This document shows positions 986 through 64,000 of a DNA stretch of 64,000 nt, piece after piece. The position numbers and the translations under genes are program-made. Each line of letters opens with the position of its first letter. The first letter of the stretch is position 1. The notes beneath the pieces were generated by a model that was given only the letters and a program-made list of their open reading frames with translations, made no database searches and was not told the DNA's origin. Source of the DNA: Anisus vortex (lineage: Eukaryota; Mollusca; Gastropoda; Planorbidae); assembly GCA_949126835.1 (NCBI GenBank), contig OX421508.1, positions 19,046,598 to 19,110,597 on the forward strand. Direction: 5' to 3'.

Positions 986-3900
986 GTAAGTGGTCTGTGT
1001 TAACTCTTGCCATACTACAGGGCTCATTTGGTTTGGGAAAACTGACTTGATTTTTCAAGTTTGGGTAAACTGACTTGATTTTTCAAGTTTGGGAAAACTG
1101 ACTTGAATTTTCAAGTTTGGGGAAGTTTGGGAAAACTGACTTGACTTTTCAAGTTTGGGGAAGTTTTGGAAAACTGACTTGAATTTTCAAGTTTGGGGAA
1201 GTTTTGGAAAACTGACTTGAATTTTCAAGTTTGGGGAAGTTTGGGAAAACTGACTTAAATTTTCAAGTTTGGGGAAGTTTGGGAAAACTGACTTGAATTT
1301 TCAAGCTTGGGAAAACTGATTTGAATTTTGGGAAAACTAACCAAGGTGTGGGAAAGTTTGTGATTCTCACAAAGCTGGACTTAACACTTGTTGTAAAAAA
1401 AATTTTCACAGTAAAAAATTATGTAGTTAAGAAGTTAAGAACTTCCATTAAGTTTATTATAAGTACTTTAAAAATATCCACAAACTATTATTTGGACAAA
1501 TTATATACACTGCCAGTAAACATTAAGAAATTAATCACATACCTATGAACATTTGTTTGTGAAATTTTTTTGTGATGGTTTGTGAAAAGTTGGGGAATTT
1601 TTTGTATTGATTTTAGAGTAAGAACCCTGGCACTGGCTATTTTCTGAAAGTGTTAACTGTCGCCATCCTGCCTCCCATTCTTAAAACTAGTTTTTCAAAT
1701 TACAAACATGCTTTATATCTAATGGTAGTGCCAGATACTCAAAATTTCTTTGGCATTTTGGTTTTGCTTGCAATAGTGTGACTTTCTTGTTGCTATATTT
1801 ATTTTTGTTTGCAGACAGCTGTTGACTAATATAGTAGTCAACTTTCCCTTATGTAGGTTTCAATAAAGGATAGGTGATGGATATATGTTTTACTTTTTCG
1901 CTTTGTAGGCTTGAGCAGACAACAGTTAATTAACATAGCCTTGCTCTGTGGCAGTGACTACACAGAGGGAATCCAGGGTGTTGGACCAGTTAGGGCATTG
2001 GAAATAATGGCAGAGTTTCCAGGAGATGGTCTCAAAGGATTACTGTTATTTAGGTATTGAAACACTCCTCATAATTGCTTTATATTTTTCACAATTTCAC
2101 CTCTTGTTGTTTATGATTTCTAGGGAGAAATATTTTAATGTATTCAATATAATAGCTTTGTGTTTAAATAGATTTTTATGTAAAGCAGATGCTAAGCTCT
2201 TGCTAAGACTGGTGTTGCTAGGTCTTATTGAGTTACCCTCTTAAATGTCTGTGATTATTTCTGTTTTCTTCAATTATTTCAATAACAGTATTCAATATGA
2301 AATGATATTATAAGACGTAACATAAAATAGTTTAGTACTAAATCGCTATTTCATAGCATAAATAAAGCACATTAATATACTGTAATCCAATTCAAAATAG
2401 TACAAACTCAAAATTCATTTCTTCAACTTGCTAGTTACAATAAAATATCTTAGCTTTTTTCACTTAAGCGCCCAGAGGTTAACTAACCTTCCTTGGTCTT
2501 CCTATCACATGAATTTACGTCCCTTTACTTCAACTAAATTACATATCTCACGAATTCCCCGTAATCGTGATTAATACTTCTCAATCTTAAATAGATTCTT
2601 CTAGAAAGGGATTTAAGGGAATCAATTAGACTATATTTTCATGGTAATTTAAATATTGCATAAGTTATTTAGCTGGCCACACAATCCCCCAGTGTGCCAT
2701 GGCCACAAAACTGGTGAACGCTACTTTGCCAACCCAATGAATCAATATGGTCTGTAGGGAATACTAGAGATAGATCTATAACAGGATATTTTGCCTCTAG
2801 CAGACATTTTTGTTATATTGAACTGGATCATAGCTACAGCCCTCAAGTCAGACGTCGCTGTATTTTCATTATAAAAAAATGTTTATGTTGTATATTTATG
2901 TTACCGAGAGGATCAATATAAGCAATTATATGTTAGTGAGTCAAAAAGTAAAAAGTATAAAAATAACCAGATCAAGAAAAAAGAACATTTTTTAATATCT
3001 TTTTTTTTCCATCGACTTTGACTCTGTTTTCTAGGAAAACACTTTCTTGGTAATAACATTAAATATTGTTTTATCGTGGTTGTTTTTTTGTTTTAAATAA
3101 AAAGTAATGAAATGTTTTACCCAACAGAAAATGGTGGGACAAAGCCATCAATAAGAGAACTGGAAACTCTGAGAGTAAAGTCAGGAAACGTCTGAAGGAA
3201 CTGAAGCTCATACCTGGTAATTATTTGTGGATCTGTCACTGTGTCACTTTGACCTTCTTTTTTTTTTAAACATTAGGATATGTGGTTATTTCTTTTCTCT
3301 AAAGAAATATTTATGATTCTTAAGGTAAAGAGTAGATCTTTCAGTGGTAAAGAAAAACATATAAAAGTTGATTTTTTTACTCCCTTTCTCTTAGCTCATA
3401 CTGTCTGTCTGCTTGTAATCTGCTTGTAAAGCTTTGCATAGATTTTTTGACCACTTCCCATCATCCAATCGAGCAGAAACTTGGGCAGCAGACTTGTGGG
3501 GACTTACAAAACATTCTATCAAATTTTTAGTTTATACTATAATTTAAATTTTTACAAAGAAAGGGAGTCTAATAAAAACTTGGCTTTTATAGGTTAGTTT
3601 TTTATCAATCTATATATGTATATATATCAAGTTATAGGGCATGGTAGCCGAGCGCGAGCGCGTTTGAATGTCGATCCAAACGTTCTGGGCTTAAATCCTG
3701 GTGAAGGCTAGGATTTTTTTCCCAGGACTTGATAGTGTCCCTGAGTCTACCCAGCTCTAATGGGTATCTGACATTACTTTAGTTGGGATAAAGTAAAGGT
3801 GTCTGAGCATCGTGCTGGCCACACATCCCCTAGTATGCCGTGGCCACAGAAACTGGTGAACGCTGCTTTATCAACCCTATGATCAGTTTGGTCCAAAGGG

Positions 3901-36354: not shown

Positions 36355-39300
36355 GTAAGTACATTTTCCTTCTTTAAAAAAATTCTTTATAGGGTTTAGG
36401 GTATAGGCTAATTGGTAAAAGTAAGTATACCTTTGTGAAGCTGTTCAAACATTTTTGTGGTCTTTGCATACAAGGGGATTGTGTGGCTAGCACAATGCCC
36501 AGCCACCTTTACTAGGCTATCCCCCCAACTAATGTCCGGTATCCATCTGGGACACCCTTCAGATCTGGGAAAAAATTATATCCTTTTTCAGGGTTTAAAC
36601 CTGGGGTCGCTATATGCCAAGGGAGTGTGCTGCCCCTGGACCACCTTCCTACTGCACTGGGTGTACAAGCTAAGTGTTCTGGACAGACAGACATATCTGG
36701 TCTTTTAAATCTATTTTTTTAATGATAAATTTCAAAGAATATAAAATACCTACCATATATACTTGCGTATAGGTCACACCATATTTTTACTTTAAATTTT
36801 GATAAAAATTAGGGTGCTACCTAAACACTTGGCTTAGTTTTGAAAAAGTTTGAAAAACATCACTACTCTGTCATTAAGTTGCAACTGTCACCTGTATCGG
36901 TGGTTGTTATAATGTATAATTACTAGGCTATATATTGCTTAGCTTTGGCCTACATTTTACATTAACAAAACTTTCGTAGGTGTACAAAATTTGTTTATAT
37001 AACTGACATTGAAATGGACAAATATTTTAGGTTTTCAGACCCCCAAACCCTTTTTTTTTAAAATTCTGGACCAATTTTGTATTGACAAAGCGTAGCATAA
37101 ACTTAAGACAGCATTTTTTGTATTGATCCCAAATTACAATATGGAAAGAATCCTAGATACGTAAAATAACTTATATGACAAATAATACTAGACAAAGGTT
37201 GCAACCTATCCACTTGTATGCGAGTACAATATCTAAAATGTATGCATGTTTTTATTTTTCTTGAGCTTTGAGCTATACAATTTTCTTATTTTTACTCTAT
37301 ATTTTTTATACTGAATCCTTTGAAATACAATATGATACAATACTATGATGTATTGTCTTAGAATATTTTATTCTCTTTAAAAAATTATGTATTGTTAAGG
37401 TTAAGCCTATTTAAAAACATAATAACCTTTTTCTTGTTTTCTTTTTTCCTATTTTTTTACTGCAGCTTTGACAATTATACAGCCAACATGATGGTTGATG
37501 GCGTGCCAGTTAGTTTAGGTTTATGGGACACAGCAGGACAAGAAGACTATGATAGGCTTAGACCCCTTAGCTATCCACAGGTACTGTTCATAGGCTTAGA
37601 CCCCTTAGCTATCCACAGGTACTGTTCATAGGCTTAGACCCCTTAGCCATCCACAGGTACTGTTCATAGGCTTAGACCCCTTAGCTATCCACAGGTACTG
37701 TTCATAGGCTTAGACCCCTTAGCTATCCACAGGTACTGTTCATAGGCTTAGACCCCTTAGCTATCCACAGGTACTGTTCATAGGCTTAGACCCCTTAGCT
37801 ATCCACGGGTACTGTTCATAGGCTTAGACCCCTTAGCTATCCACAGGTACTGTTCATAGGCTTAGACCCCTTAGCTATCCACAGGTACTGTTCATAGGCT
37901 TAGACCCCTTAGCTATCCACAGGTACTGTTCATAGGCTTAGACCCCTTAGCTATCCACAGGTACTGTTCATAGGCTTAGACCCCTTAGCTATCCACAGGT
38001 ACTGTTCATAGGCTTAGACCCCTTAGCTATCCATAGGTACTGTTCATAAGGTGGATTTTTGCTAACTTTTTGAACTTTTCTTATATAGTGTGTGTGTTTT
38101 TTTTAAGGTTTTTAACAAAACAAACATTTAGGACTAACCTACCAGTAGCAGCCCAATTGTCATTAATTGCTGTGTTACCTGATGTTCTTTTACCATTACT
38201 CTCTTGAGTCCTGGGTATAGATCCCTTTAAAATGTGTTATTTGTTTGACAATTGTTACATTGACACAGTCTCCCCTACCAGATTTCACCAATTGTTTAAA
38301 TCTGACTATAATTTCCCTTTTATGATGAGAGGTGAGATTTTTAACAAATTAAATATACTCCATTTTTTTACAACACTATAAACTGAAACACAATGTCATC
38401 AATTACATTTTTGAAGAGGGAAATAAAACACATAAATTCACCAATTGAAAAAAAAAATTACAAATGCAACTAATCTTTGAATAAACATTCTGCAATTGTG
38501 GTAAAAGGTTACATCCTTATTTCTTTGTTTCAATAAGGTACTTGTGTATAAATACGATTCGGCTAGTGATATAAAATCTAAATGCGGAAAGTACTGGGCT
38601 AATGGGAGTAAAATTTGCTCATGATTATATGCTTGCCTGCTTCCAATAAAAGAGTGACTCAAATATTGATCAAAAATTAAAATTCTTGTTTTTTAAAAAT
38701 CTTTATCTTATATATTACAGATGCTCCTTCTATAAAGAAGATTATTGCGTCATGTGCTCATCTATTTTTTAGAACAGATTTGATGGCTTGATTCTATTGT
38801 ACTCTCTCTCTCTCCACAGACTGATGTATTCCTCATATGTTTTAGTGTTGTGAGTCCATCATCTTATGAGAATGTTTTAACCAAGTGGAATCCTGAAATA
38901 AAGCACCACTGTCCAGAAGCTCCAGTTATAGTCGTAGGTGAGGCTAGTTTGTCCAAGAGTTTTTGTTATGTTATACTAGTAGTGGGTTATGATAGTTTCT
39001 TCAGCTTGTTGTAATGCTGTAATAGTTTGCAATAAGTTTTCCAGAGTTGTAATGTTATAATAGTAGTAGGTCAACAGAACATACCAATTAACTTTGAGCA
39101 CAGAACAATATTTTTTAGTATTTTTAGATATGTATGTATTTACTTCTTTGTGTGTGTGTAAGTTTCTCAAAGTTTCCTTGATGTCAATATATAACTGTGT
39201 AAAGTTTCAATATATAACTGTGTAATGTTTCAATATATAACTGTGTAATGTTTCAATATATAACTGTGTAATGTTTCAATATATAACTGTGTAATATTTC

Positions 39301-42300
39301 AATATATAACTGTGTAATGTTTCAATATATAACTGTGTAATGTTTCAATATATAACTGTGTAATGTTTCAATATATAACTGTGTAATGTTTCAATATATA
39401 ACTGTGTAATGTTTCAATATATAACTGTGTAATGTTTCAATATATAATTGTGTAATATTTCAATATATAATTGTGTAATATTTCAATATATAATTGTGTA
39501 ATATTTCAATATATAATTGTGTAATATTTCAATATATAATTGTGTAATATTTCAATATATAATTGTGTTATATTTCAATATATAATTGTGTAATATTTCA
39601 ATATATAATTGTGTAATATTTCAATATATTATTGTGTAATGTTTCAATATATAATTGTGTAATATTTCAATATATAATTGTGTAATGTTTCAATATATTA
39701 TTGTGTAATGTTTCAATATATAATTGTGTAATATTTCAATATATAATTTCAAGGAACCAAAATTGACCTCAGAGAAAACAAAGAAACTATAGGAAGCCTG
39801 ACAGCTCAAGGGCTTAATCCAGTTAAAAGAGAACAGGGGATAAAGTTGGCAAATAAGATAAGAGGCGTTAAGTATATGGAGTGCTCCGCCCTTACTCAAA
39901 GAGGACTTAAACAGGTTTGATATTTGTATTTATATTCATGTATAGAAACATGTATTTATGAGATGCCCTTTTGTAAAAGGTGCTAAGGGTAACTGATTTT
40001 TACAGAAATTGAATTTTTAAGTAACAATTTAGCATCTTTTGATAGGTGTATCATATTTTCTATCAAATATATTTGAGTGCTAAGAAATTTATGTAGGCTG
40101 AGCTAATGATCAGCATATATAAGACATTCTTAAAGACAGTGGTGATCAGGGTTCTCACACAGTCTGGAAAAGTATGGAATTTCAAAAAAACAAATCAAGG
40201 CCTGGACAACCTTGAATATTGGCATTTTAGCCTGGACAAATAGCCTGTCAGCCTGGAAATTTATCTAAATCTATATTTATGTCTAAATTTATTATAAAAA
40301 TGAAAATCAGACAAAAAACGCCAATCCCATTTTTATACGCCATAAACGCCCACTGACCGAGCCTTAGATTAATACCTCATTCACGCAATATTTAGGTCAC
40401 TTAGGGGGGAGGAGACGTGTGACCGTTTTCCAAATAACGTGTTCCAGCAGCCTGGAATTTGGCTCTTAAAGCCTTGAAATTGTCTGGAAACAGCCTTGAT
40501 TTTTTTTAAAGAAAAAATGTGAGAACCCTGGGTGATAACATTTTTAAAAAAGTGACTTTGCACCTGTTGAAAGTTTACTAATCTATAGTATTTCTGAAAC
40601 CAAAGTCCTAAAATTGTTGTGTTAAGGAAAGATTTATGAAGAACTGGATGAATGAGGGATTAGGTTAAACGTTCTAGATCAGGCGTGTCAAACTCAAAAA
40701 GCACCATGGGCCGCATTAGATACTTTGAGTATACCGTCGGGCCACATCAACAAATTCGAGAAACACTGTAATATTATTGAATTATATTTAATTAATTTGC
40801 ACGCCTACACAGCAGCTTTATTAAGCTAACGCCCCACAACGCCAAATATAAAACAATAAGTGTAATTTAACATATTTTTTGTATAATCATTCAATCATTT
40901 TTACACTTTAATCAGTGTTTTGTCCTGAGGTTTGATGCCTCCTCTTTATGACAATTTTTGGTATATATCTGGCTGAAATGTATTCGCATTTCCGACCTTC
41001 ATCAGGGATGACAAGTGTTCATCGGTCAGCCTTGTTCTCTGAGAAGTTTTTGTTAATTTCATGAAGGAAAATAACTGTTCACACACATAGGTGGAACCGA
41101 ACATTGCCATTATCGTATTTGAAAACTTTCTGAAGTTTGTAAACTTTTCAGGAAGGTATGAATAGAAGCCAGATACTTCTAGATACTTTGCTTTGATTGC
41201 AGAATAAGACTGCATTTCTAATAGCTCCATCTGCAAGTTTTCCTCCGCTTTGACAATATCAAAGTTGAATGGTGCCGAGAATAATGCAAGATGGTATTCA
41301 AAGATGAGAAATCACTAAATCTTTCCGGGAACTCTTTTGACAATAACTCTATGTGACTCTCTTATTTAGCAAAGATAGAGATTCAGCATTGGCCTGGTTT
41401 TTTAGTTCTTTGCAGTTAGGAAAAGGAACCAAATTTTCACGTGACAATTGTGTCTTCCATAAGCTTAGTTTTGTAATGAAACACTTGATGTCGTCGTACA
41501 ACTTAGTGATGAGTTTTTTTTTTTTGCTTTGTTTTTACCTTTCATCTCCAAAAATATAGCAATTTCTAGTCTCAGCAAATAAAATCTTTTCAGCACTTTG
41601 TAACACGACAACCAACGGACTGCTGTGTATAATGGAACATAGGTGATTCAGCTGACTGAACTGACGATGATTGAGAGCATTTGATAAAGTTCACTGTTTT
41701 TTGTGACCACATAAGCACGTGATTCAATTATAAAGTCTTTTAACACAAATTTTGCTGATGAATAATGTAGTGAAAATGTGCAAATGATGAATACGATCTG
41801 GATACGAGTTCTCAATTTTTGTTTGCATCTTGGCAGCAATACCATTATGTCAGCGCCGTCAGTAGATAAACATACACGTTTACTCAAATCAAAATCATAG
41901 TCATGCAGAATCTGCTCGACTTTTTCAAAGATGTCTTAGCTCGCTGTAGTGTCATGCATTGGGATTAGCTCAATCAGTTCTTCAGAAATATTAAATTCAC
42001 TGACACAGAGCCTAATAATAACTGCAAGCTGTGCTATTCCAGTGATGTCAACGGTCTCATCAATTGCAATAAATGTTCAAATTTGGATGATGCAGCCTTC
42101 ATTTGTTGTTTCAAATCATCTGCCATTTCATCAATCCGTCCAGCAACAGTGTTCCTGGTTAACGAAATATTCTTAAATAACTGCGCCTTCTGATGGCACA
42201 CAATGTCAGCCGCTTTCATAAGGCAACGCTTTACGAAATCTCCTTTACTGTAAGATATCCCACTAATGGCGACCATTCTACTGAGTTCATAGCTTGCAAG

Positions 42301-44516: not shown

Positions 44517-44966
44517 TTCATTTTGAAGTTCTATCCTGTATGGATATATGATAGTTTTGAAGTTCTATCCTGTATGGATATATGATAGTTTTGAAGTTCT
44601 ATCCTGTATGGATATATGATAGTTTTGAAGTTCTATCCTGTTTGGAAATATGATAGTTTTAAAGTTCTATCCTGTATGGATATATGATAGTTTTGAAGTT
44701 CTATCCTGTATGGATATATGATAGTTTTTAAGTTCTATCATGTATGGATATATAATAGTTTTGAAGTTCTATCCTGTATGGATATATGATAGTTTTGAAG
44801 TTCTATCCTGTATGGATATATGATAGTTTTGAAGTTCTATCCTGTATGGATTTATGATAGTTTTGAAGTTCTATCCTGTATGGATATATGATAGTTTTGA
44901 AGTTCTATCCTGTATGGATATATGATAGTTTTGAAGTTCTATCCTGTATGGATATATGATAGTTTT
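44517..44966 (+). repeat. 34-bp minisatellite in Mtl 3' UTR, about 13 copies
   Basis: Unit 'gatagttttgaagttctatc' then 'ctgtatggatatat', nearly identical between copies. If the UTR is transcribed this far, the array is in the mRNA. Confidence 0.95.
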
Positions 44967-52268: not shown

Positions 52269-52537
52269 TCATTCCTCAGTCAGGACTATCCTTAAGTTTG
52301 CAGGTGAAAAGCAATTGGCTGTAGTTGAGGTTAGGCCGTAGGATGAGACTGGCAGATCTCCCTCAGCCAGCAGTTCATCATTTCTGTAGAGCATCATATG
52401 CTTGGGGTCAAGCTTTAAGATCCCTTCTATAATTTTCTTGACTTCATTGACAGTTGTGCCCTCAAGCACATCAGTGAATATGGTGGTTTTGTCATGATGA
52501 ATTATTAAATAGACTTCTTCATGTTTTACAGACTCAG
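52269..52537 (-). CDS. Elongin-B-like ubiquitin-fold domain, last exon
   Basis: Encodes ESVKHEEVYLIIHHDKTTIF, then TDVLEGTTVNEVKKIIEGIL, then KLDPKHMMLYRNDELLAEGD, and ends RIVLTEE with a TGA stop. It follows elongin B (human [20 protein letters not shown]... IVEGILKRPP...LYKDDQLL) in order and spacing, but with only moderate identity. It also stops where elongin B would go on for about 35 residues including the EPFSSPPELPDVMK tail. Elongin B partners elongin C in VHL- and SOCS-box ubiquitin ligases and transcription elongation. Molluscan elongin B is expected to be much closer to human, so this is probably a diverged paralog or another ubiquitin-like protein. The acceptor 'ttattgttcacag' joins phase 2 after exon 54551-54640. 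It has no stops, so a recent pseudogene is possible but not shown. Confidence 0.65.
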
Positions 52538-53500
52538 CTGTGAACAATAAAAAAAGAGATGGTGACATTTAGAATTAAGAGTTGGGTAACTTCTTGTAAT
52601 GGGTCAATGTACTTGAAAGCACTAAAAGGCTCAGCTGTGAACAATAAAAAAAAAGAGATGGTGACATTTAGAATTAAGAGTTGGGTAACTTCTTGTAATG
52701 GGTCAATGTACTTGAAAGCACTAAAAGGCTCAGCTGTGAACAATAAAAAAAGAGATGGTGACATTTAGAATTAAGAGTTGGGTAACTTCTTGTAATGGGT
52801 CAATGTACTTGAAAGCACTAAAAGGCTCAGCTGTGAACAATAAAAAAAAGAGATGGTGACATTTAGAATTAAGAGTTGGGTAACTTCTTGTAATGGGTCA
52901 ATGTACTTGAAATCACTAAGGCTCAGCTGTGAACAATAAAAAAAGAGATGGTGACATTTAGAATTAGAGTTGGGTAACTTCTTGTAATGGGTCAATGTAC
53001 TTGAAAGCACTAAAAGGCTCAGCTGTGAACAATAAAAAAAAGAGATGGTGACATTTAGAATTAAGAGTTGGGTAACTTCTTGTAATGGGTCAATGTACTT
53101 GAAATCATTAAAAGGCTCAGCTGTGAACAATAAAAAAAGAGATGGTGACATTTAGAATTAAGAGTTGGGTAACTTCTTGTAATGGGTCAATGTACTTGAA
53201 ATCATTAAAAGGCTCAGCTGTGAACAATAAAAAAAGAGATGGTGACATTTAGAATTAAGAGTTGGGTAACTTCTTGTAATGGGTCAATGTACTTGAAAGC
53301 ACTAAAAGGCTCAGCTGTGAACAATAAAAAAAGAGATGGTGACATTTAGAATTAAGAGTTGGGTAACTTCTTGTTATGGGTCAATGTACTTGAAAGCACT
53401 AAAAGGCTCAGCTGTGAACAATAAAAAAAAAGAGATGGTGACATTTAGAATTAAGAGTTGGGTAACTTCTTGTAATGGGTCAATGTACTTGAAAGCACTA
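52538..53500 (-). repeat. 97-bp minisatellite that copies the 3' splice site
   Basis: About ten copies of a unit of 95-99 bp. Each has on the minus strand 'tttttattgttcacag' then 'ctgag', identical to the true acceptor at 52537. Acceptor copies end at 52634, 52733, 52830, 52926, 53022, 53120, 53217, 53314 and 53411. After each comes CCTTTTAGTGCTTTCAAG or a close variant, open in one frame (AEPFSAFKYIDPLQEVTQ). Identity between units is very high. Confidence 0.95.
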
Positions 53501-54550
53501 AGCCCTTCTATGTGAATATGCTAGCATAGAAGGGTTCATGTATATTCAGTGATGTGTTACAGGAGAATAAGGATGCTACATTAGAGATTTTATGCTAATA
53601 TCCTTCTCAAATGCACAAATAAATGTCTTAGTCTTAATGTTTTTAGTATGTATATAGAGTAGCCTATAGGTAATCTATACTTTAAAATGTTATTTTTCAG
53701 TACTCAAAGAACATATTTTTCTGAGCTTCAATATATTTTTCTTTTAATTTTAGGATAACAAAAGCCAAAAAAAGCAAACAAATTTCTGCAAATTTTAAGT
53801 TTGATAATATATTTTCATAAAAAAAAAAATCAAATTATAAGGGCAAAAAATGAACAAAAACAATCAGCTCTCTAGAAATTAATACACAAGCATTAAAATT
53901 GATATTCTATAAATCCATTTTTTAGATAGGTAAATCCAACCATTCAAAAGTTACTTTAAGAATTGAGAAATTGTTTGTATCTATTGCTTAAAAAGAAAAT
54001 CTAAGATTTTTATCTTGTTATAAAGACATAACATTTCTTTAGTGACGGAAACTTTTGCTGCGTTTTCCATTGTAGTGAAATTCACTCATTTTTCTATCCA
54101 GTATTAAACTGTAAATCTAATTTGCTACTATTGCGACACATCCATCCCCTACTTCATGTGCAACTAAATTTCCGCCATGGTGTCAACACCTTGATTCGTT
54201 AATACATTTTTTCAGCTTTTTAGTTGGATTCTATTTTAGTCCCAGCAGAGCTGTTAGAAAGCGGTTTCTTAAAAAGAAATGTTTTTATTACAAAGAGTAA
54301 GTTGCATAATTGCTTGCCAAGTTGAAGTTATTGTAATGTCTGTTTATTCATTTGATTTTTTATTATGGCAAGACAAATGGTCTGCCAGTTTCATGACTGA
54401 TCAATACCATCTAATACTTTGTTTGATAATACTTCTGACAATGAGGATGATTCAGATATACCTTGAAAAATATGAACCCTGTTATAAGATGGTGATTCTT
54501 CTAATAACAACAAAGTTAATTGTATACATTATTCAAAAGTTCAACGATAC
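53501..54550 (-). other. Intron of elongin-B-like gene, remainder
   Basis: AT-rich sequence with no recognised element. The intron would start with GTATCG at 54550. Confidence 0.45.
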
Positions 54551-54640
54551 CTGCCAACTGTAAGTCAGAATGTTGTTCAAAGATCAAAGCATCTCCTGTT
54601 TCTTGGATCACACATACAAACTCTGGGCCTTGGAAGGAAT
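54551..54640 (-). CDS. Probable upstream exon of elongin-B-like gene
   Basis: Minus strand, acceptor 'ctgctgtgcag', donor GCAG|GTATCG. One frame is open over all 90 bases: SFQGPEFVCVIQETGDALIF then EQHSDLQLA. Its phase (2 in, 1 out) joins exactly to 52537, giving LQLA-AESVKHEEVYL. I do not recognise the sequence; it is not elongin B, so the protein would carry an N-terminal extension. Too short to be sure. The start codon and earlier exons were not found. Confidence 0.45.
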
Positions 54641-54915
54641 CTGCACAGCAGTGAAAAGATATTCCAATAAACAAAATGACATCTTTGTAAAATGTCCTAC
54701 TTAGATAGTATGTAATTTAATACTTCTATGAAAATGGAACCAATTTATTTTTTTTAAAGTCTGCCTTTAGTGGCTTTAAAATGAACTAATGGTTACAGCT
54801 CGTTACACCTTAATATAAACAATAATATAAAATAAGTAGACTAAATTAGTGTTCCAATAGTTAATAGAAAAAATCTATATCTGGTTGTTTACAATATACT
54901 TCTTGTCTAATAGAG

Positions 54916-55054
54916 CAGGGCCTCTTAAACCTATGCCTTGCAATACCCACAACTCAAACTGGACCGGTGATGTGTAGAGTGCAGGCAAAATATCCCCAAT
55001 GCTGTATATAATTTGTTTCAAAGTGAATTGGGATTGCAAGTTTAAGAAGCCCTG
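54916..55054. mobile_element. Small MITE, 139 bp
   Basis: Ends 'cagggcctcttaaac' and 'gtttaagaagccctg' are inverted repeats with a second matching block ('ttgcaataccc', 'gggattgcaa'). The flanks 'taatagag' and 'cattagat' are only partly alike. Confidence 0.7.
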
Positions 55055-57524
55055 CATTAGATCATACATGTTGGTAATAATGTACCATTCACTTTGCTCA
55101 TAAATACTTGTCACATATTTCTGAAATTCACTTGACAAATTTGTTTTAGTTTTAAAGTCACCTAGTTACTCTGATGCAGAGGTTACAAGCTGAATCCAGG
55201 TCACAGTTAGTCCTTATGTAGTGACATTAAAGGATGGTCAGCTTGTCTTTACATACAACATCCAAACTTTACTTCTTTCCAATCATAAGAATGTTTCATT
55301 CATTTCCACAATCTGTAAGCCTCATAATGATTCCATCCTTTCTCAGCAGCCAGATGGCATAGTTTTTTTATTTGGATGTGCGAAAAGTTTATATAAGCCT
55401 GGGCCTAAAGTTTGAGTCAAGATCCCATGTTTAATTTTCAGCAAATATGATTCCTTTCTATCAAGTGCTGATGTCCAGTGTTCTTGTAATATTATTTTTG
55501 TTGATATTATTAAGTTCTGGCTACTTATTAACATACCTGTCTTTCTTCAGATGCTCTCCGGACAACCAATTTCTCTTATATTCTATTCAATGCTGACAGC
55601 TAGCGCATTTTTTTTCTATTTTATAGTCATGACCTTTATGTATGGATTTTTGATTCTCCTTTTTTTCCCCAGTTCAACTCATTTCTCTCAGGCCACTTCT
55701 CATACCGGGTACCATTTATATTTTAAGTTGTGCAGCAAAGGCTATAAACACTAGCATTCAAACTCAGGTTGAAGATTTGTCCAGAGCAAAACATCATGAT
55801 TCAAGCCATAAAGCCAAAACAAGAGTGATGTGCTGCTGATCAGTACAAAATGTAGTGTTGTCATTTTCATTCACTGAATATTCTCAAGACACTCAAGTCC
55901 ACTTCAGGCTACAATTATACTTTACAGGACTGATCATTGTCATGGGAAATCTCTTTTTTCCTTTAAAAATCCAATTTGCCTATTACTACTATTAGTAGTA
56001 ATGAAGATACTTATCCTTTAGATAAATCACTTTTAAACATGTGCGGTATAACCCAGCTTTAAATGCTCAAGTTACACAATGTATAAAACCTACCTCAAAT
56101 AAGATGATATCAAATAAAGCTTCTTCTGCAAATCACACTTGCCATCAAACTGGATTCTCATATGTAGCTTATAGATAAAAAAATACTGCTCTATTTTTTC
56201 AAAAACCTATTGTGCAGGCTTTATGCAAGCAAATGACAAGTTTCATTGCTGGAAAAATGTTGAAGGATTAATATTTATAATATAGTCCCGAAACGTAATG
56301 CACATTACAGATGTTGCTTGTGCTTCAATAATCCAGTAGCTTTCAAAAGTTCAGGCTATTTACTATTAGTATTAGGATCCTGATTTTTTTTTTTAAGATA
56401 ATCTTATAATTCAATAAACATGGCAAAGTAAATTATCACCTTACACAACAATCTTTTTTGAGTCAATATTTTATCATTTACATGTTAATTAATGAAGACA
56501 TTATATTGCTGGCATTTTTCATTTCATTAGATCCCATAATTTTTTGTTTGTTGTATATCAATAAACTTGCACAAGTTCAGTTCCATAAACACCTTTGCTT
56601 TACTTTACTCCAACAGGTGAAGCTGTTTTTTTTTTTCAAATGTATGGTTTTAACACATTCTGTGTATCATTTGATAATTGGCCATCTTAAAAATGACTTC
56701 ACAATGATTTCAATCATTTGGAATGAAATACTTTTTTGATACTACATTTCATAATTTATTTTAAAAAATATATATAAATAGGCTAAGCTACAATGAGTAT
56801 TGGTACTTCAGGCTAACATGGCAAGGAGCTCTGGGGATTCTAACACACATTGTGATGACTGGCTGTGGTTGTCAATTAAGGACAAACAATATCCACACAT
56901 ATCATTACTGAGTGAAGAAAATATCTCTCCTAAGCTGTCTCCTTGTGTTTAGCTTCACACACCTCTTACCTTAAGCTAGCGTTATCCAGTGTAGTTTAAT
57001 TCCTAATTATTTTAGGTATCAAGCTCTCTTTTTGACTGCTTCTGGTTCTCTGAACCATAAGAAATCTCTGTTCATGTTATCACTTTAAAAAAGTGAGGTT
57101 CAGCTTTGCTTCTAATTGAAATCTCAGCACAGAGGATCCAGCTTGCTGCACATACTGACATGTTCCCAACCTTCCCTACTAAGTGATAACATGCATCTGC
57201 ATAGCTACATACCTATGTTGATAACTTATGCAGTAAAATTAAGGCTCTTCCTTCTCTAAAAAAAAATTAATTAATTCCGAAATGTCTACATTGCTTCTAA
57301 AGTATGATGATTTGATTTTCAGAATGACACATTTTTGTGAGTAAAAGTTGATCAATAACTTTTACAAACAGCTTCACCCTAACTGATGCTTTTCCTTTCA
57401 GTCCAGTTGGCATGCATCATTTTACTGCTTCCAAAACCTGCTTCCTCTTTAATTCCCATTCCATTATTTCCAATGACATTCAGAAATTAACATACAAATG
57501 AAGAAAGCATTCTTTAAACATAAA
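55055..57524. other. Spacer between the two minus-strand genes
   Basis: Should contain the 5' end of the elongin-B-like gene, but I could not identify another exon. No clear mobile element ends. A better-than-background GC patch lies at about 56815-57000. Confidence 0.35.
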
Positions 57525-57530
57525 TTTATT
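57525..57530 (-). terminator. Poly(A) signal of the RS/RGG-rich gene
   Basis: AATAAA on the minus strand 444 bases after the TAA stop at 57974, the first clear hexamer I saw downstream. Confidence 0.5.
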
Positions 57531-57973
57531 TTGAACCCAAAACGTAAAAACGAGCACAGTGACAAGATTACAAAGTAAAATGATTTACAGCACTAGGTTC
57601 TAGCACAAACAATGAAATGACCGAATATAACATACACAGTAATGATTTAATTTTCTTCATCATGAAGTGTTCATTTGCAGGGTAAATAATGGCAATCTAA
57701 AACTTGTCTACTGCCACCCAATTCAACTAAGCATTCTTAGAGAATCTCCAGTCTGTTTTTTATAGCCCTCCGTACGTCTCAAACACTTTTTGATAAACAT
57801 ATGCCACATGATTGTTGGCTAGTTGGATAAAATAATTATAAAAAAGGAAACAAGGCTTGTTTGGTAAAATTTCCATACATCCCGAAAAAAGTTCTGTACA
57901 ACATCAATTTATTCTTTCTTTCAGTGCTCATCTCCATCTGTTCCGATTCCAAAGCAAAATTTCAAGCCTCCAT

Positions 57974-58122
57974 TTATCGCCTACTACTATAGCTGTCTCC
58001 ACTTTCCATGCGTGGTCTTTTCCCAAGTGAGCTGTCTCTGCCAGGCGGGGAACGACTACCCCGTCTGCCCCCAGAAAAACCTCTACCCCTGCCTCTTGGG
58101 GGACCGCCTCTGCCTCGAGAAC
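57974..58122 (-). CDS. RS/RGG gene, last coding exon
   Basis: Acceptor 'taaatgcacag'. Encodes SRGRGGPPRGRGRGFSGGRR, then GSRSPPGRDSSLGKRPRMES and GDSYSSRR, TAA at 57974-57976. Confidence 0.9.
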
Positions 58123-61100
58123 CTGTGCATTTAGTTTGTGAAATAAATCATTGCATTATTGAACAATAGAAACTAAAAGTCATTTATTGCATTATTTCAT
58201 GTGACCATTAACGTAGTAGCTAAGTATACAAATCAGTAATAAATAGTTTTTCCAGGGTCTAGACAGACAAAATAAAACAGTAAAATACTGGACTCCAAAT
58301 ATGTCACATTATTTTGATACCATTGATAATACTCTTTCACCAATAGTATTGCCATTTAAATGTTTCAGTTGCCAAGCACTAGTTGTTTTTACTGTCTTCT
58401 TGAAATGAACATTTCTTTCATCAATAAACATAATGTGTTTGTTTAAACACCTTCATTTCACCTTCATTGCAAATCATCCACTATCACTTTTACAAGTGAT
58501 CACTTCAAGGCAACCTCTGGTAGCATCTGCAGTTTTGTACAAAGGGGAAAATAGAACTAACAGTTTTCAAATAGGAAATGGCTCGAGCTTTGCTTTCCCC
58601 TCATCAAATATGTTTGCTCTGGCAACAGAAAAAGTTGACCAAATTGAGCAGAAATAATAGAAAATAGCCTATCATCCTTCAGGCTTGGATTTTTCATTGC
58701 GCTGGTCCTTGTATTCAGCATTAATGAAATACACAGAAAGATTTATATTCATTCAAGTAAAAAGCAGAAACATAAATGTGAGTTGATTCATTAGAACTTT
58801 AAAAAACTCATCCAATATAATTGTCATTTTTCTTTGTTTTATAACCTAAATTCTTATTGTTTGAAAAGATGTATCAAATTTGATATTGTATATATCCTGT
58901 TTGTTTAATAGCCCTGATAGCTTTCCATCAGTAATGGCGTTATTAGCCCTTGGATTTGCTTTCACACAATACATTGTACAGGCTTTCAGCTTTTCCAGAA
59001 TTTCAAGTTTAGTAAATTGTTCTGTTTATATCGTGGTTGTACACTGTATAATGTGCTTGTATTTATGCATATTAAAATAATGTTAATCTTGATACATTTT
59101 TTTAAAATACAGAGACTTTGTATGGGCACAACTATAAACAAATTGCAATTTGATAGATATGTGTATGTCATCAAGAAAAAACAACAGCCCAAAACATCAT
59201 CAACAAAAGGTCTATTCAAACTATTAGAAGAAATTTCATGATTGGTCTATTCAGGTCTCCACACATTACATTCATTGTTGTTGTGAATATACCTGTAACT
59301 AATATTTCCTTGTAGGCCAAAACAATAGAAACAAAGCCCATGTAGTGTTCCATGTCAAACTAAATTCAGATTATATATGTGCTAAGATAATATGCAAAGG
59401 AATTGTGTGTAAGAACTCTACAACTTACCCATATAGCCGCCTCTACTTCCATGATCATCACGCCCATCACGCATTCCACCCCTTCCACTATGACCTTTTG
59501 GAAGAAAACAAAATTAATTTACATTATTGGTACAAGTTTCCACTTTAAGCACAACTAGTTTTTTGGTATTAAAAAGAGAATATGCCTTGGGTATGTTATA
59601 CAAGAATCAGAAATTTGATTAAGATTTTTAAACGCTATAATAGTGGTTTTGTTAGATGGTAATCTTTTACATCAAGTAGCATAAATGATATTGGTTCTGA
59701 AGGTAAGATATTTTTAATACTCATGTTTGATTTTCAGAAATCAAGTCTAAATGCTTTCCAAACTTAAGATTTATCTTTTTTCAATAAATCTTGATCATGA
59801 CTTTCAGTGAGTATAAACAAAGCCATCACTGGCTCTACCAGTCTATAGTACTAAATGGGAAGGTTTCTTTTGATCTCCAATTGTGTTATGGACAAAATTA
59901 ATGATCAGTTAAAATCAGATTCCTACAAATGACAATCAGTTTGAGAAAAAACACCATCTCTACTGGAGATGAAATGAAAACCTACTTTTAAATTCTCTAG
60001 GGGGTCCTCTACCTGAAGATCTGTCATCTAATTTAGGAAATCTACTGGAAGAAAAGTCTCTGTTTCCAGAAAAAGGAAAATAAAAAAATATGCCATGAAA
60101 GAACAAACATTATGGATATTTGTAATAAGCATTAGTAGCATGTAAAGCAGGAATCAGAGAAAACTGAACATTCAGTCAGAAGATAATAATAATCTATAAT
60201 ACATGTGAAAGATAATTAAAATGTATGTGTAATACTTTAATGTTGAAATTTGTTTCTGTATCCTTTATTAGCTAAATAATATTTTATTGTATAAACCTCT
60301 TGTTTTAAATCATATTCAATTAAATATATTGAAAGTTGAGCAGAATGAGTCTATGTGAAATTAAGAACTACCAATGACATTCATTTACAATTACAACATA
60401 AAATTCACAAAATAATTTGAGGGGAGATGCAAAGCTGCTAAATTACAAAACACATGAAAAATCTAGCCTTTTATTTGTTTCTTTAAATATCTAAAGTTAT
60501 TATACCGGTAATAGCAATATTATGCAGAAATATAAAATGTTATCAATAAAGTGAAATTAAGTCAGTATTGTTGAAGAAAAAAAAAAGAACAAGTTTATCT
60601 GTCTATTTCACACAGGAGTAATTTGTTAATAGTAATGTTTATCAAATAGAATGTTTACAGCAATAAAAAAAAAAATGTATCTTACAATCAGGGTAAAAAA
60701 TGTCTATAGGTTATCTATCAGAACCTTACAGCATGTCCATAATAAAAGGTTTCAAGTGTGTATGAGCTAAGCTAAAGTAAAGAGCCCAAAATTACCTGTC
60801 CCCATTATGGTGGTGATCTCTGCTGTCTAATAAATCACTACTATGCCTACCCATGTGGCCACCTCGCCCACCCCTTGAAGAGAACTCGCGATCAGAATTA
60901 TGGCTGCGTTCTGTGTTATAGCTGCGATCAGTACTAGAGCCATGCTGTGCTGACCTGTAAACGAGAAAAATCTACCGCTAAACATTCCAGGAATAGGAAA
61001 GCATTAATAAGCCAGTATTAACCCTTTCTGAGCCACGATCATTAAATTTTTATTTAAATATAACAAATAAAGAAAAGATAATACAGTTCTTGAGAAAAAA

Positions 61101-63493
61101 GCACATAAAGGAAAGTGACCTAAAAAAAAAAATAATCTAGAAAGGGTTTAAAAAAACCAAGATTAAGCAGGGGAAATAATACATGCATTACTAAAGTAAA
61201 ACAATTTTTATTTTCCTTTCATATGTAACAGCTATATAACATGCCTAGTAAAAAGAAATTACTGATCAATATATAAAAGCTTGGTTTATCAATATATTTG
61301 ATTATAACACATTCACAAAATGATTACCCAAAGATTATTAGACTAGAACCTAATCGTAAATCACCTCACAATTATTTGCCTTGGCAAACAATAGGCAAAC
61401 AGAGTTTAAATTAAGAAAAAAATATTTATATTTCAAGAAAAATCCAACTTTTCATAGAGCAATAGCTAATGGTGTCAAAAAGTCTCCATGTCACAGTATT
61501 ACATATATGTAAACAACCACCATTTTGCAGTTAATAAAATGAGAATAAAACACTGTCATAGCGACAACTATCTGTCAAAGGCTGACACTGCATTGATGTG
61601 ATGATCTTATGCTCAAAATAGTTTAAATTGTTTGAATTTGTGGAATTATATTCATATGTCACCTTAAGCATAGTTATAGCATGTCTTTTTTTAAATATAT
61701 TTTTGGCAATGTTTTGTTTATTCACAAACTTTTCCATTTGTTGGTCAGTTTACCCAAACTCTCCCAGCCTGTATGAACCATGTGTAAAAAAGCAACATAT
61801 TCAGTAGAGCCATGAGTTGAGTAGACAAATGGAGATGGATATCCACAAAAAAAGAAACAACACATCAAAAATAATATTTTTATATGAAAACATGATCTAC
61901 ACACACAAGAAGAAAATACTATATGAACATGCACAGCTAACATAAACTGCTTGCATATTATTATTATAAATTACAAATGCTTACCGGTCTCTTGGTGAAC
62001 TATCTCTGCGTAGTGGCTCTCTAAAGTCAGACGAGCGTGGGTAATCTCTTGATCCATAATCCCGGGTAGAATCCCTAAAATCCCTGCTACTCTTTTCCCC
62101 AATGTAGTCACCACTTGATCGTGGGGAGATGAAATCCCTGGGCCTTCCAAGGTTTTCCCGTCTGTCTTCTCGTAGACTAGAACTAAACGCTTCCCTAAAA
62201 GATCTGTGTATGGACATTGATGATAAATTGTTACTAGTTTGTTTTTTTTTAGTTTGTAAGTTAACCAATATTTTTAGTAAGAAACATGCATGTGTATATA
62301 TCTTTATATATATATATATGATCTATAAAAAAAAGTATTGTGTGTCTAGATAGAAACAAAGATGTGAATTACCCAGAATCTCCTGATAAGCTTAAACGAG
62401 GAGAAAGCAAAAAGTCACGAGAACCTGAGCCAAAGTCTCTATCTCGCAGACTGCTTCTCAGCGGACTGAGCCTGCAAAAGATAATACAACATTATTATGA
62501 TGAAACGATTGGCTTAATAACAGAATAACCCTTACAGTCTACTCATCCATAAATACAGCCTAGCCATTGCTTAAGGTATTTAATTACATTTACCTGTCTA
62601 AAAGTCTGCTGCTTTCACGCGGAGGTGAAGAATAAAGATCTCTGGATCTGGAAGGGAGGCCTCTTTCAAAATCATCATCAAATCTGTCCCTTCGACCTGA
62701 CATAATGGAATTTAAAATAAAAATTACTGTTTTTGTGACATGTCATCAATACATTTTTTTGTATTATGATTTGAATACAGAAAACACAGAGCAAAGTAAG
62801 AATAAGAAAAAGGAAAGGGAGAGAAAAATAAATTGCTAAGTCAGGTATTGTGAATATGGTGAAGAGAACTGATATAAATACAATAGTTTTATGCAAAACA
62901 AAGATCTATATTATATTGGTATGTTTTGTTTAGTAACGTACATTCCACAAATTAGACCTTTTAATGTTTCTGAAATTATATACCGTAAAATCTATGACCC
63001 CCTCTTGTATAAAGGATTGGTGTCTGACTTGCCGGGGTAAGCGTACAATTTTCTTTCATAAATTATGCAAATATTTTGTTTTAAAAGCAACACGCTGTTA
63101 AACAGTATTACAGTAGTAAAAGGCATAAGGAGACAGATGCTGATAGAAAAGGGTTATTGCCACATTCAACTACATTTCAAGATTTGTTCATTATTTTATA
63201 GTCTTAGTGATATAGGTAATGGTAATCCATCATAAATTTCAATTGATATCTGAACCTATGAAAAACACAATTTTACATTTATTTGCACGTAAGCCGTATC
63301 CTTTTTTCTTTGACATAAAAATTGTGTAAAAATTGTACAGCTTAGACTTGAGATTTTATGGAACGGATATGTGAGATTATAAAGTTTACCCTTACTTTTA
63401 CTCAAAGGTGGACCTCTGCCTCTATCTGAATCAAATCCTCTTGACATCATGGGTACTTTTCTTGGTGGAGAGTCATCGTCACGACTAGAATGC
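57974..63493 (-). CDS. RS/RD/RGG-rich nuclear protein, last eight coding exons
   Basis: Coding exons in transcript order are 63396-63493, 62594-62696, 62373-62471, 61985-62203, 60796-60954, 59986-60059, 59429-59494 and 57974-58122. They give 967 bases, 321 residues, and all phases agree. The protein is low-complexity: RD/SR-rich blocks (REDRRENLGRPRDF, RDFRDSTRDYGSRDYPRSSD) pass into RGG blocks (EFSSRGGRGGHMGRH, GSRGRGGPPRGRGRG). It ends KRPRMESGDSYSSRR with a likely nuclear signal. Such tails bind RNA and are methylated and phosphorylated in splicing or hnRNP-type proteins (RBMX- or SAFB-like in style). The defining domain must lie beyond the window, so I give no name. Strict phase keeping over eight exons shows a real gene. 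Confidence 0.88.
58123..59428 (-). other. Intron of RS/RGG gene
   Basis: From GTAAGT at 59428 to 'gcacag' at 58123. AT-rich; no element or exon recognised. Confidence 0.6.
59429..59494 (-). CDS. RS/RGG gene, seventh coding exon in window
   Basis: Encodes HSGRGGMRDGRDDHGSRGGY and M. Acceptor 'tcttccaaaag', donor G|GTAAGT. Confidence 0.88.
59986..60059 (-). CDS. RS/RGG gene, sixth coding exon in window
   Basis: Encodes DFSSSRFPKLDDRSSGRGPP and REFK. Acceptor 'ctggaaacag', donor A|GTAGGT. Confidence 0.87.
60796..60954 (-). CDS. RS/RGG gene, fifth coding exon in window
   Basis: Encodes SAQHGSSTDRSYNTERSHNS, then DREFSSRGGRGGHMGRHSSD and LLDSRDHHHNGD. Acceptor 'gtttacag', donor AG|GTAATT. Confidence 0.9.
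61985..62203 (-). CDS. RS/RGG gene, fourth coding exon in window
   Basis: Encodes SFREAFSSSLREDRRENLGR, then PRDFISPRSSGDYIGEKSSR and the RD-repeat block to RRDSSPRD. Donor CG|GTAAGC. The longest internal exon and the richest in RD pairs. Confidence 0.92.
62373..62471 (-). CDS. RS/RGG gene, third coding exon in window
   Basis: Encodes LSPLRSSLRDRDFGSGSRDF and then LLSPRLSLSGDS. Acceptor 'cttttgcag', donor GG|GTAATT. Confidence 0.9.
62594..62696 (-). CDS. RS/RGG gene, second coding exon in window
   Basis: Encodes RRDRFDDDFERGLPSRSRDL and then YSSPPRESSRLLD. Acceptor 'attatgtcag', donor AG|GTAAAT. Confidence 0.9.
63396..63493 (-). CDS. RS/RGG gene, first coding exon in window
   Basis: Encodes HSSRDDDSPPRKVPMMSRGF and then DSDRGRGPPLSK. 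Donor A|GTAAGG; an alternative donor 8 bases downstream would also keep a frame (adding KG). Acceptor 'caattccag'. Earlier exons lie past the window. Confidence 0.85.
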
Positions 63494-63554
63494 CTGGAAT
63501 TGATTTAAAAAAAAACAAAAAACCATTTCAATATAAGGTGATCTAAATGGTCTA

Positions 63555-63826
63555 GGGGGCACGGTAGCCGTGCGGAAGCGCGTTAGACTGGCAAGCCGAA
63601 GATCCCGGTTCGAATCTTGGTGCAGGCTAGGATTTTTTCCCGGGTCTGGAAGGTGTCCCTGAGTCTACCCAGCTCTGATGGGTACCTAACATTAGTCATT
63701 AGTGGGGGGTAAAGTAAAGGCGGCTGTGCATAGTGCTGGCCACACAATCACCTAGTATGCTGTGGCCACAGAAACTGGTGAACGCTGATCTCAATTCGGT
63801 CCGACAGGTACTTTACTTTAAATGGT
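63555..63826 (+). repeat. tRNA-derived SINE, best-preserved copy
   Basis: The head 'cacggtagccgtgcggaag' with 'cgcg', B box 'ggttcgaatc', body 'tctacccagctctgatgggt' and 'cagaaactggtgaacgctg', ending 'ggtactttacttta'. It lies in an intron of the RS/RGG gene on the opposite strand. A and B boxes suggest RNA polymerase III transcription when new. Confidence 0.9.
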
Positions 63827-64000
63827 ATAATTATGGAAGACTTTTGTTAAGCAGCAGCACAATAACCTACAAACAGTGGTTGTACAATTTTCACTTTCTT
63901 TTACGATGAAATAACACAGCCCGTCCAGTATTGTACAGTTAATGTATCCTCTTCCTTTTACTAATAAATACACTTTTGTATTTTGTTCTTCTGTGTTATA

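Follow-up and report, generated by a model that had tools for sequence, protein, structure and literature searches.

The last exon of an elongin-B-like gene in Anisus vortex is preceded by a tandem array of ten 97-bp units, each of which carries a copy of the predicted 3' splice site of that exon, and a 38-bp array in the Mtl gene of the same window (the whole 64-kb stretch of DNA that was analysed; GC = 35%) multiplies a 5' splice site (Table 1). Among 137 exon hits outside the window, splice-site copying was found in five other arrays, at a donor in four and at an acceptor in one, and array edges were not in excess at the ends of these hits. The best explanation, in which we place good though not full confidence, is that an ordinary minisatellite crosses a splice junction blindly and is limited by deep overlap with coding sequence.

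Table 1. Window positions of the arrays, exons and splice sites discussed in the text (the slash marks the splice junction).
Feature	Position	Strand	Remarks
28/38-bp array, intron of the XPG-like nuclease gene	1031..1329	+	donor at 985 lies 46 bp before the array; splice sites not copied
Mtl (Rac/Mig-2-like GTPase) exon	37466..37580	+	3' end of the exon begins the 38-bp array
38-bp x 13 array in Mtl	37552..38048	+	starts 29 bp inside the exon; donor CAG/GTACTG copied
23-bp x 24.6 array, next Mtl intron	39184..39748	+	stops 6 bp short of the next exon, which begins at 39754
Elongin-B-like last exon	52269..52537	-	divergent paralog, without an intron of the canonical gene
97-bp x 10 tandem array	52533..53501	-	TRF, unit split, unit alignment
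Exon-proximal acceptor AG	52538..52539	-	first exon base 52537; presumed working site
Nine decoy acceptors	52634..53411	-	unit split, matrix scores, frame check
Perfect 10-bp inverted repeat, 12-nt loop	53503..53534	-	directly adjoins the far end of the 97-bp array
Candidate upstream coding exon, 90 nt	54551..54640	-	hypothetical; phase 1 at both ends, in-frame join to CT GAG

For the 97-bp array, TRF on the 64-kb window gave a period of 97, 10.0 copies and 97% matches. At its end, each unit has a polypyrimidine tract, then CACAG and the first five bases of the exon, CTGAG, which are the only exon part (5 bp) of the unit. CACAG/CTGAG occurs ten times on the minus strand, with the first bases after the AG at 53411, 53314, 53217, 53120, 53022, 52926, 52830, 52733, 52634, and 52537, and the lengths of the units, split at the acceptor, are 97, 97, 97, 98, 96, 96, 97, 99, and 97 bp. 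The proposal of the first-pass annotation that a 97-bp minus-strand unit carries the acceptor of the exon is thus borne out by TRF and the unit split; its statement that the acceptor was copied ten times holds for the number of copies present, of which one is the exon's own and nine are extra (decoys). Scored with an acceptor matrix derived from three gene models of the window (18 acceptors), the ten copies range from 8.1 to 12.7, and the exon-proximal acceptor reaches 11.4, above 99.6% of 7289 AG sites.

In the unit alignment, substitutions are few, the length of the T-run varies among the units (7, 8, or 9), and an AATGAT variant is common to the adjacent units 3 and 4. The T-run differences and the variant common to two neighbours are as predicted by slippage and local duplication. 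Ten copies at 97% identity are not a chance match; whether their location at a junction goes beyond chance is a separate question. A search of the 863-Mb genome, which skips simple repeats and very common words, detected no array sequence beyond its own locus. In addition, a BLAST search of the window at E 0.01 with the elongin-like exon, the hairpin flank, and six units of arrays gave no match outside their own places, and a dispersed origin of the units was rejected on the basis of this window search. The inverted repeat at the far end of the array is of an uncommon kind: a perfect stem of at least 10 bp was present in 0.27% of 1500 random 65-bp stretches, and in 1 of the 12 array edges examined, the far end of the elongin-B array alone. 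Stalling of a replication fork at this inverted repeat could be conceived. The stretch from 53503 to 53534 was also observed to fold as DNA at -8.9 kcal/mol (z -3.25).

Conceptual splicing yielded the elongin-B-like frame from one acceptor of ten, the exon-proximal one, and a stop before the elongin-like sequence from all nine upstream acceptors (9/9). Because all nine others give a premature stop, splicing would need the exon-proximal acceptor, and from this we infer the use of the site at 52537. The frame argument of the first-pass annotation is correct insofar as 97-bp units shift the frame, but the 99-bp unit, which had been expected to keep it, brings no rescue, as the next unit is 97 bp and every upstream acceptor leads to a stop. 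Between 57600 and 53515, two open exons of 30-250 nt with phase 1 at both ends have sites over the thresholds: the candidate upstream exon (acceptor score 5.6, donor score 7.3) and another of 42 nt. On the minus strand of 52500-64000, a start codon directly before a phase-1 intron (ATGG/GT[AG]) was found only at 60854 and 59432, and both were rejected as such a start, as they lie within the RGG-rich gene model.

It is also conceivable, although unlikely, that the elongin-B-like ORF begins unspliced in the last unit, at the ATG at 52568, so that the acceptor motif would be incidental and the array a repeat in the 5' leader. The frame from this ATG to the stop is open (99 residues), and the gene body lacks an intron of the canonical gene, as expected of a retrocopy. 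However, the N-terminus added by this start would merely be a translated polypyrimidine tract (SPSLFLLFTA), the splice site scores on par with the best known acceptors, and the candidate upstream exon joins in phase.

The elongin-B-like ORF matched the elongin-B chains of the PDB with a best E of 3.5e-16. A protein database search with this ORF gave no match at E 0.001, and Pfam at E 0.001 recognised Ras in two and XPG_I in one of the ten window ORFs submitted, with none for the other seven, including the elongin-like ORF. The canonical elongin B of the same genome is located on contig C13 and is 58% identical over query residues 9-56. Its exon, which extends from DVFIMIRHKKTTIFTD to YKDDV, terminates in a donor, where the window copy continues without an intron. 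The window copy is thus a divergent elongin-B paralog lacking this intron, possibly a retrocopy. Over 47 codons, the two differ with a pS of 0.80 (saturated) and a pN of 0.24, and the combination of few amino-acid changes with saturated silent changes argues that the window copy, like the canonical one, is under purifying selection. An acceptor likewise precedes the canonical exon, which begins about 7 codons farther inward, and the intron before the window exon may be old and shifted, or new. As a separate observation, about 45% of the canonical locus (L005, C13:20343000-20352999, and L003) is tandem array over 10 kb, versus 6% of the window.

For the Mtl gene, whose name is the label of the first-pass annotation, which we presume to be right, the exon at the array matched RAC1 residues 37-74 (E 2.6e-20). 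The 38-bp array adds 12 decoy donors beyond the authentic one, and all of these downstream donors (12/12) lead to a stop after 96 or 103 residues. The two arrays are mirror cases, as first proposed, in which one gene has had its acceptor copied and another, approximately 14.5 kb away, its donor. The AG or GT is kept in 10/10 of the elongin-B-like acceptor copies and 13/13 of the Mtl donor copies. The gene models of the window are open, with 827 residues for the XPG-like nuclease, 156 for the Mtl GTPase (198, also open, when its first exon is included), and 321 for the RGG-rich protein. The 23-bp array in the next Mtl intron touches an acceptor without copying its AG, and its repeat itself was seen to form the sequence before this acceptor, TTTCAAG. 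A further 34-bp x 13 array lies at 44521-44966, approximately 570 bp past the Mtl stop codon, probably in the 3' untranslated region.

Taken alone, the window has more large arrays close to junctions than expected. With a 30-bp distance, a 200-bp array cut-off, and a 30-coding-bp limit that were all chosen post hoc, a junction was overlapped by two of the six arrays of at least 200 bp, compared to 1.0 expected (p = 0.26), and lay within 30 bp of an array edge for three, compared to 0.38 expected (p = 0.004), and under a null that bars arrays with more than 30 coding bp, both the two overlaps (0.09 expected, p = 0.004) and the edges within 30 bp (p = 0.0004) were unusual. Four of these six arrays had an edge within 50 bp (0.61 expected, p = 0.002). 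The edge counts within 30 and 50 bp, together with the presence of two donor-copying arrays in one Rab32-like gene described below, favour a process attracted to exon edges, such as slippage linked to transcription or splicing, or repair templated there, which would seed junction minisatellites. Against such a process, only 2 of 35 junction-centred 30-mers were copied nearby, versus 9.7% of 3000 random places. For all 20 merged arrays of the window, the p value for edges within 30 bp was 0.11.

The genome searched amounts to 863 Mb in 159 contigs, 837 Mb of which is in 18 contigs of 30-87 Mb. The 137 exon hits outside the window are a sample of two gene families, Ras and kinase, and not of the whole genome. 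For the Ras family, 117 of 151 matches were used, namely the best-scoring among the matches listed plus hand-picked others, internal stops included; they were surveyed over 226 kb around the 117 hits, with the two Mtl hits of the window excluded. For the kinase family, 20 of 140 matches were used, a non-random choice hand-picked among the stop-free ones, with 300 bp on each side.

In this sample, 13 array edges lay within 30 bp on either side of the exon-hit ends, which are only near the true junctions and may deviate by tens of bp (coordinates were checked in nine cases), compared to 16.6 expected from the density at least 100 bp away; a twofold excess would have meant 33. Farther than 30 bp inside the exon hits, one edge was found versus 20.5 expected. 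Outside the hits, the edge density per kb was 0.72 at 0-30 bp, 0.97 at 30-59 bp, 0.92 at 60-99 bp, 0.88 at 100-199 bp, 0.52 at 200-299 bp, and 1.10 beyond; inside the hits, it was 0.84 in the first 30 bp and 0.00 and 0.08 deeper than 30 bp. The lone deep edge is probably that of the Rab5-like array, which is 67 bp inside the hit and 28 bp when measured from the donor. Around the Ras exon hits, array coverage was 5% of the DNA up to 50 bp away and 12-13% at more than 400 bp. After refinement of hit ends to splice sites, for which 21 of the first 69 hits were dropped because of internal stops (the Rab5-like array among them) and 48 remained, 1 edge was found within 30 bp of 66 junctions, compared to 4.2 expected.

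The excess of arrays near junctions in the window is thus not replicated in the wider sample, and array growth looks blind to junctions, with arrays scarce only deep in coding sequence. On the window tests and the exon sample, attraction to junctions was rejected as the main cause, and we regard it as improbable. The recurrence that the first-pass annotation had suspected is real, given the five more arrays in the sample; the exon-edge targeting that it had connected with this recurrence is unsupported, and its expectation that boundary arrays are commoner than chance is contradicted in these two families by the edge count, an outcome that the annotation itself had named as contrary to its proposal.

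The five further arrays were assigned to genes by reading the exon peptides, and their copy counts include the authentic site. For the Rab32-like gene (L069), the first array contains eight copies of CCAATAAG/GTAGGC, all with GT (8/8), and the second contains six donor copies, of which 3/6 have GT. For the Rab5-like gene (L040), four degenerate donor copies were found. The Rab4/14-like gene (L080) has ten acceptor copies, TTTCCACAG, and is the twin of the acceptor array of the window; with the window matrix, these copies score poorly (-1.5, versus 0.7 for the true site), close to the bottom of the range of known acceptors (-1.4). For the NLK-like kinase (L107, C13:19273809-19274615), ten donor copies lie within the stretch fetched, and two decoy donors (GTGAGT) outscore the authentic donor (9.5 versus 7.6), suggesting that site strength may not by itself determine where splicing occurs.

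The exon overlap of these arrays is 19 and 21 bp (L069), 28 bp (L040), 1 bp (L080), and 9 bp (L107), so that for all seven arrays, including those of the window (5 and 29 bp), it never exceeds 29 bp. Other arrays lie near a junction without copying it. At a Rac1-like acceptor (L074), the tract is made of the repeat, which stops 6 bp short, and at the donor of a Rab32-like paralog (L075), the array starts 3 bp outside the exon. Like that of L075, the array of L050 overlaps its exon hit, but in fact starts outside the exon, by 11 bp. At a receptor-kinase-like acceptor (L112, C4:10472799-10473650), a repeat 1 bp away copies the tract and TTGCA, with AT for AG.

Every decoy tested yields a stop, and the decoys match the true site in score or, for two of the NLK-like kinase, exceed it. 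The decoys might accordingly be read as a regulator tuned by copy number, in which more copies would give more premature-stop transcripts and less protein; we consider this very improbable, as the edge profile is already as expected from tolerance alone.

Blind crossing by an ordinary minisatellite would account for the observed array, copies, stops, other examples, and edge profile as follows. The breakpoints of the founding tandem duplication would have been located in the intron and, on the other side, 5 bp into the elongin-B-like exon, and because these breakpoints straddled the junction, every unit would hold a 3' splice site. The array would then have grown by slippage or unequal exchange, and would be tolerated because the exon retains one intact junction at the end of the array. 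As minisatellites are dense in this genome and junctions are not avoided, such arrays would be common, and they would be eliminated only past approximately 30 bp into coding sequence, a drop that we attribute to selection.

Arrays of this kind are already known from amphioxus as mirages; the lineage, probably, the frequency estimate, and the junction-blind profile are new. In the portions of the literature consulted, boundary-spanning minisatellites are described only in PMC3087553 and PMC3902484, and others may exist. The former describes mirages as minisatellite-like duplications of intron-exon boundaries in globins (BflGb6 and BflGb9) and Adh3, which affect donors as well as acceptors and leave splicing regular according to RT-PCR (PMC3087553), and the latter adds PGBD5 and troponin C (PMC3902484). 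As in the mirages, the tandem unit here spans an exon-intron boundary, by 5 bp for the elongin-B-like exon (with its presumed acceptor) and 29 bp for Mtl, and the units carry AG or GT signals, which many of the mirage units also have. Unlike in the amphioxus case, the small sample examined here already contains several affected genes. The genome (863 Mb, 837 Mb of it in 18 contigs) and the GC content of the window also do not fit amphioxus, and the contig make-up would resemble that of pulmonate freshwater snails. Regular splicing despite the arrays, as in the mirages, is likely, given the stops predicted from all decoys.

The human 6-16 gene, which we take to be IFI6, offers a further likeness. 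A minisatellite with multiple splice donor sites is named in the title of Turri et al. (1995), as cited in PMC2915984 and PMC3618361. Going by that title, both systems have a minisatellite that supplies repeated donor sites, and in the human case these belong to a transcript that has several of them. In the model of Rogers, introns are gained by tandem duplication, and for the potato RdRp case, a duplication is described in which an intron-exon structure was copied together with its acceptor, tract, and branch site (PMC4974935). The arrays resemble this model in that tandem duplication copies splice signals; unlike in potato RdRp, the copies here are strung into long arrays that lie within the introns of the gene models.

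These findings make a curiosity of a few amphioxus genes countable, and would replace exon-edge targeting by the simpler idea of indifferent growth combined with selection against deep coding overlap. If 5/137 is near the true rate, repeated donors and acceptors, many of them nearly equal in strength, would occur in this genome as a large natural series, with which ordinary RNA-seq could test how sites are chosen, how exons are defined, and whether introns are gained by tandem duplication. We tentatively suggest, with slightly more doubt than conviction, that in this non-amphioxus animal several per cent of the coding exons have multiplied splice sites, owing to minisatellites that cross junctions and reach up to approximately 30 bp into the exon. 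If this is true, nature would provide thousands of tests of the way in which the spliceosome chooses one site among ten near-identical ones.
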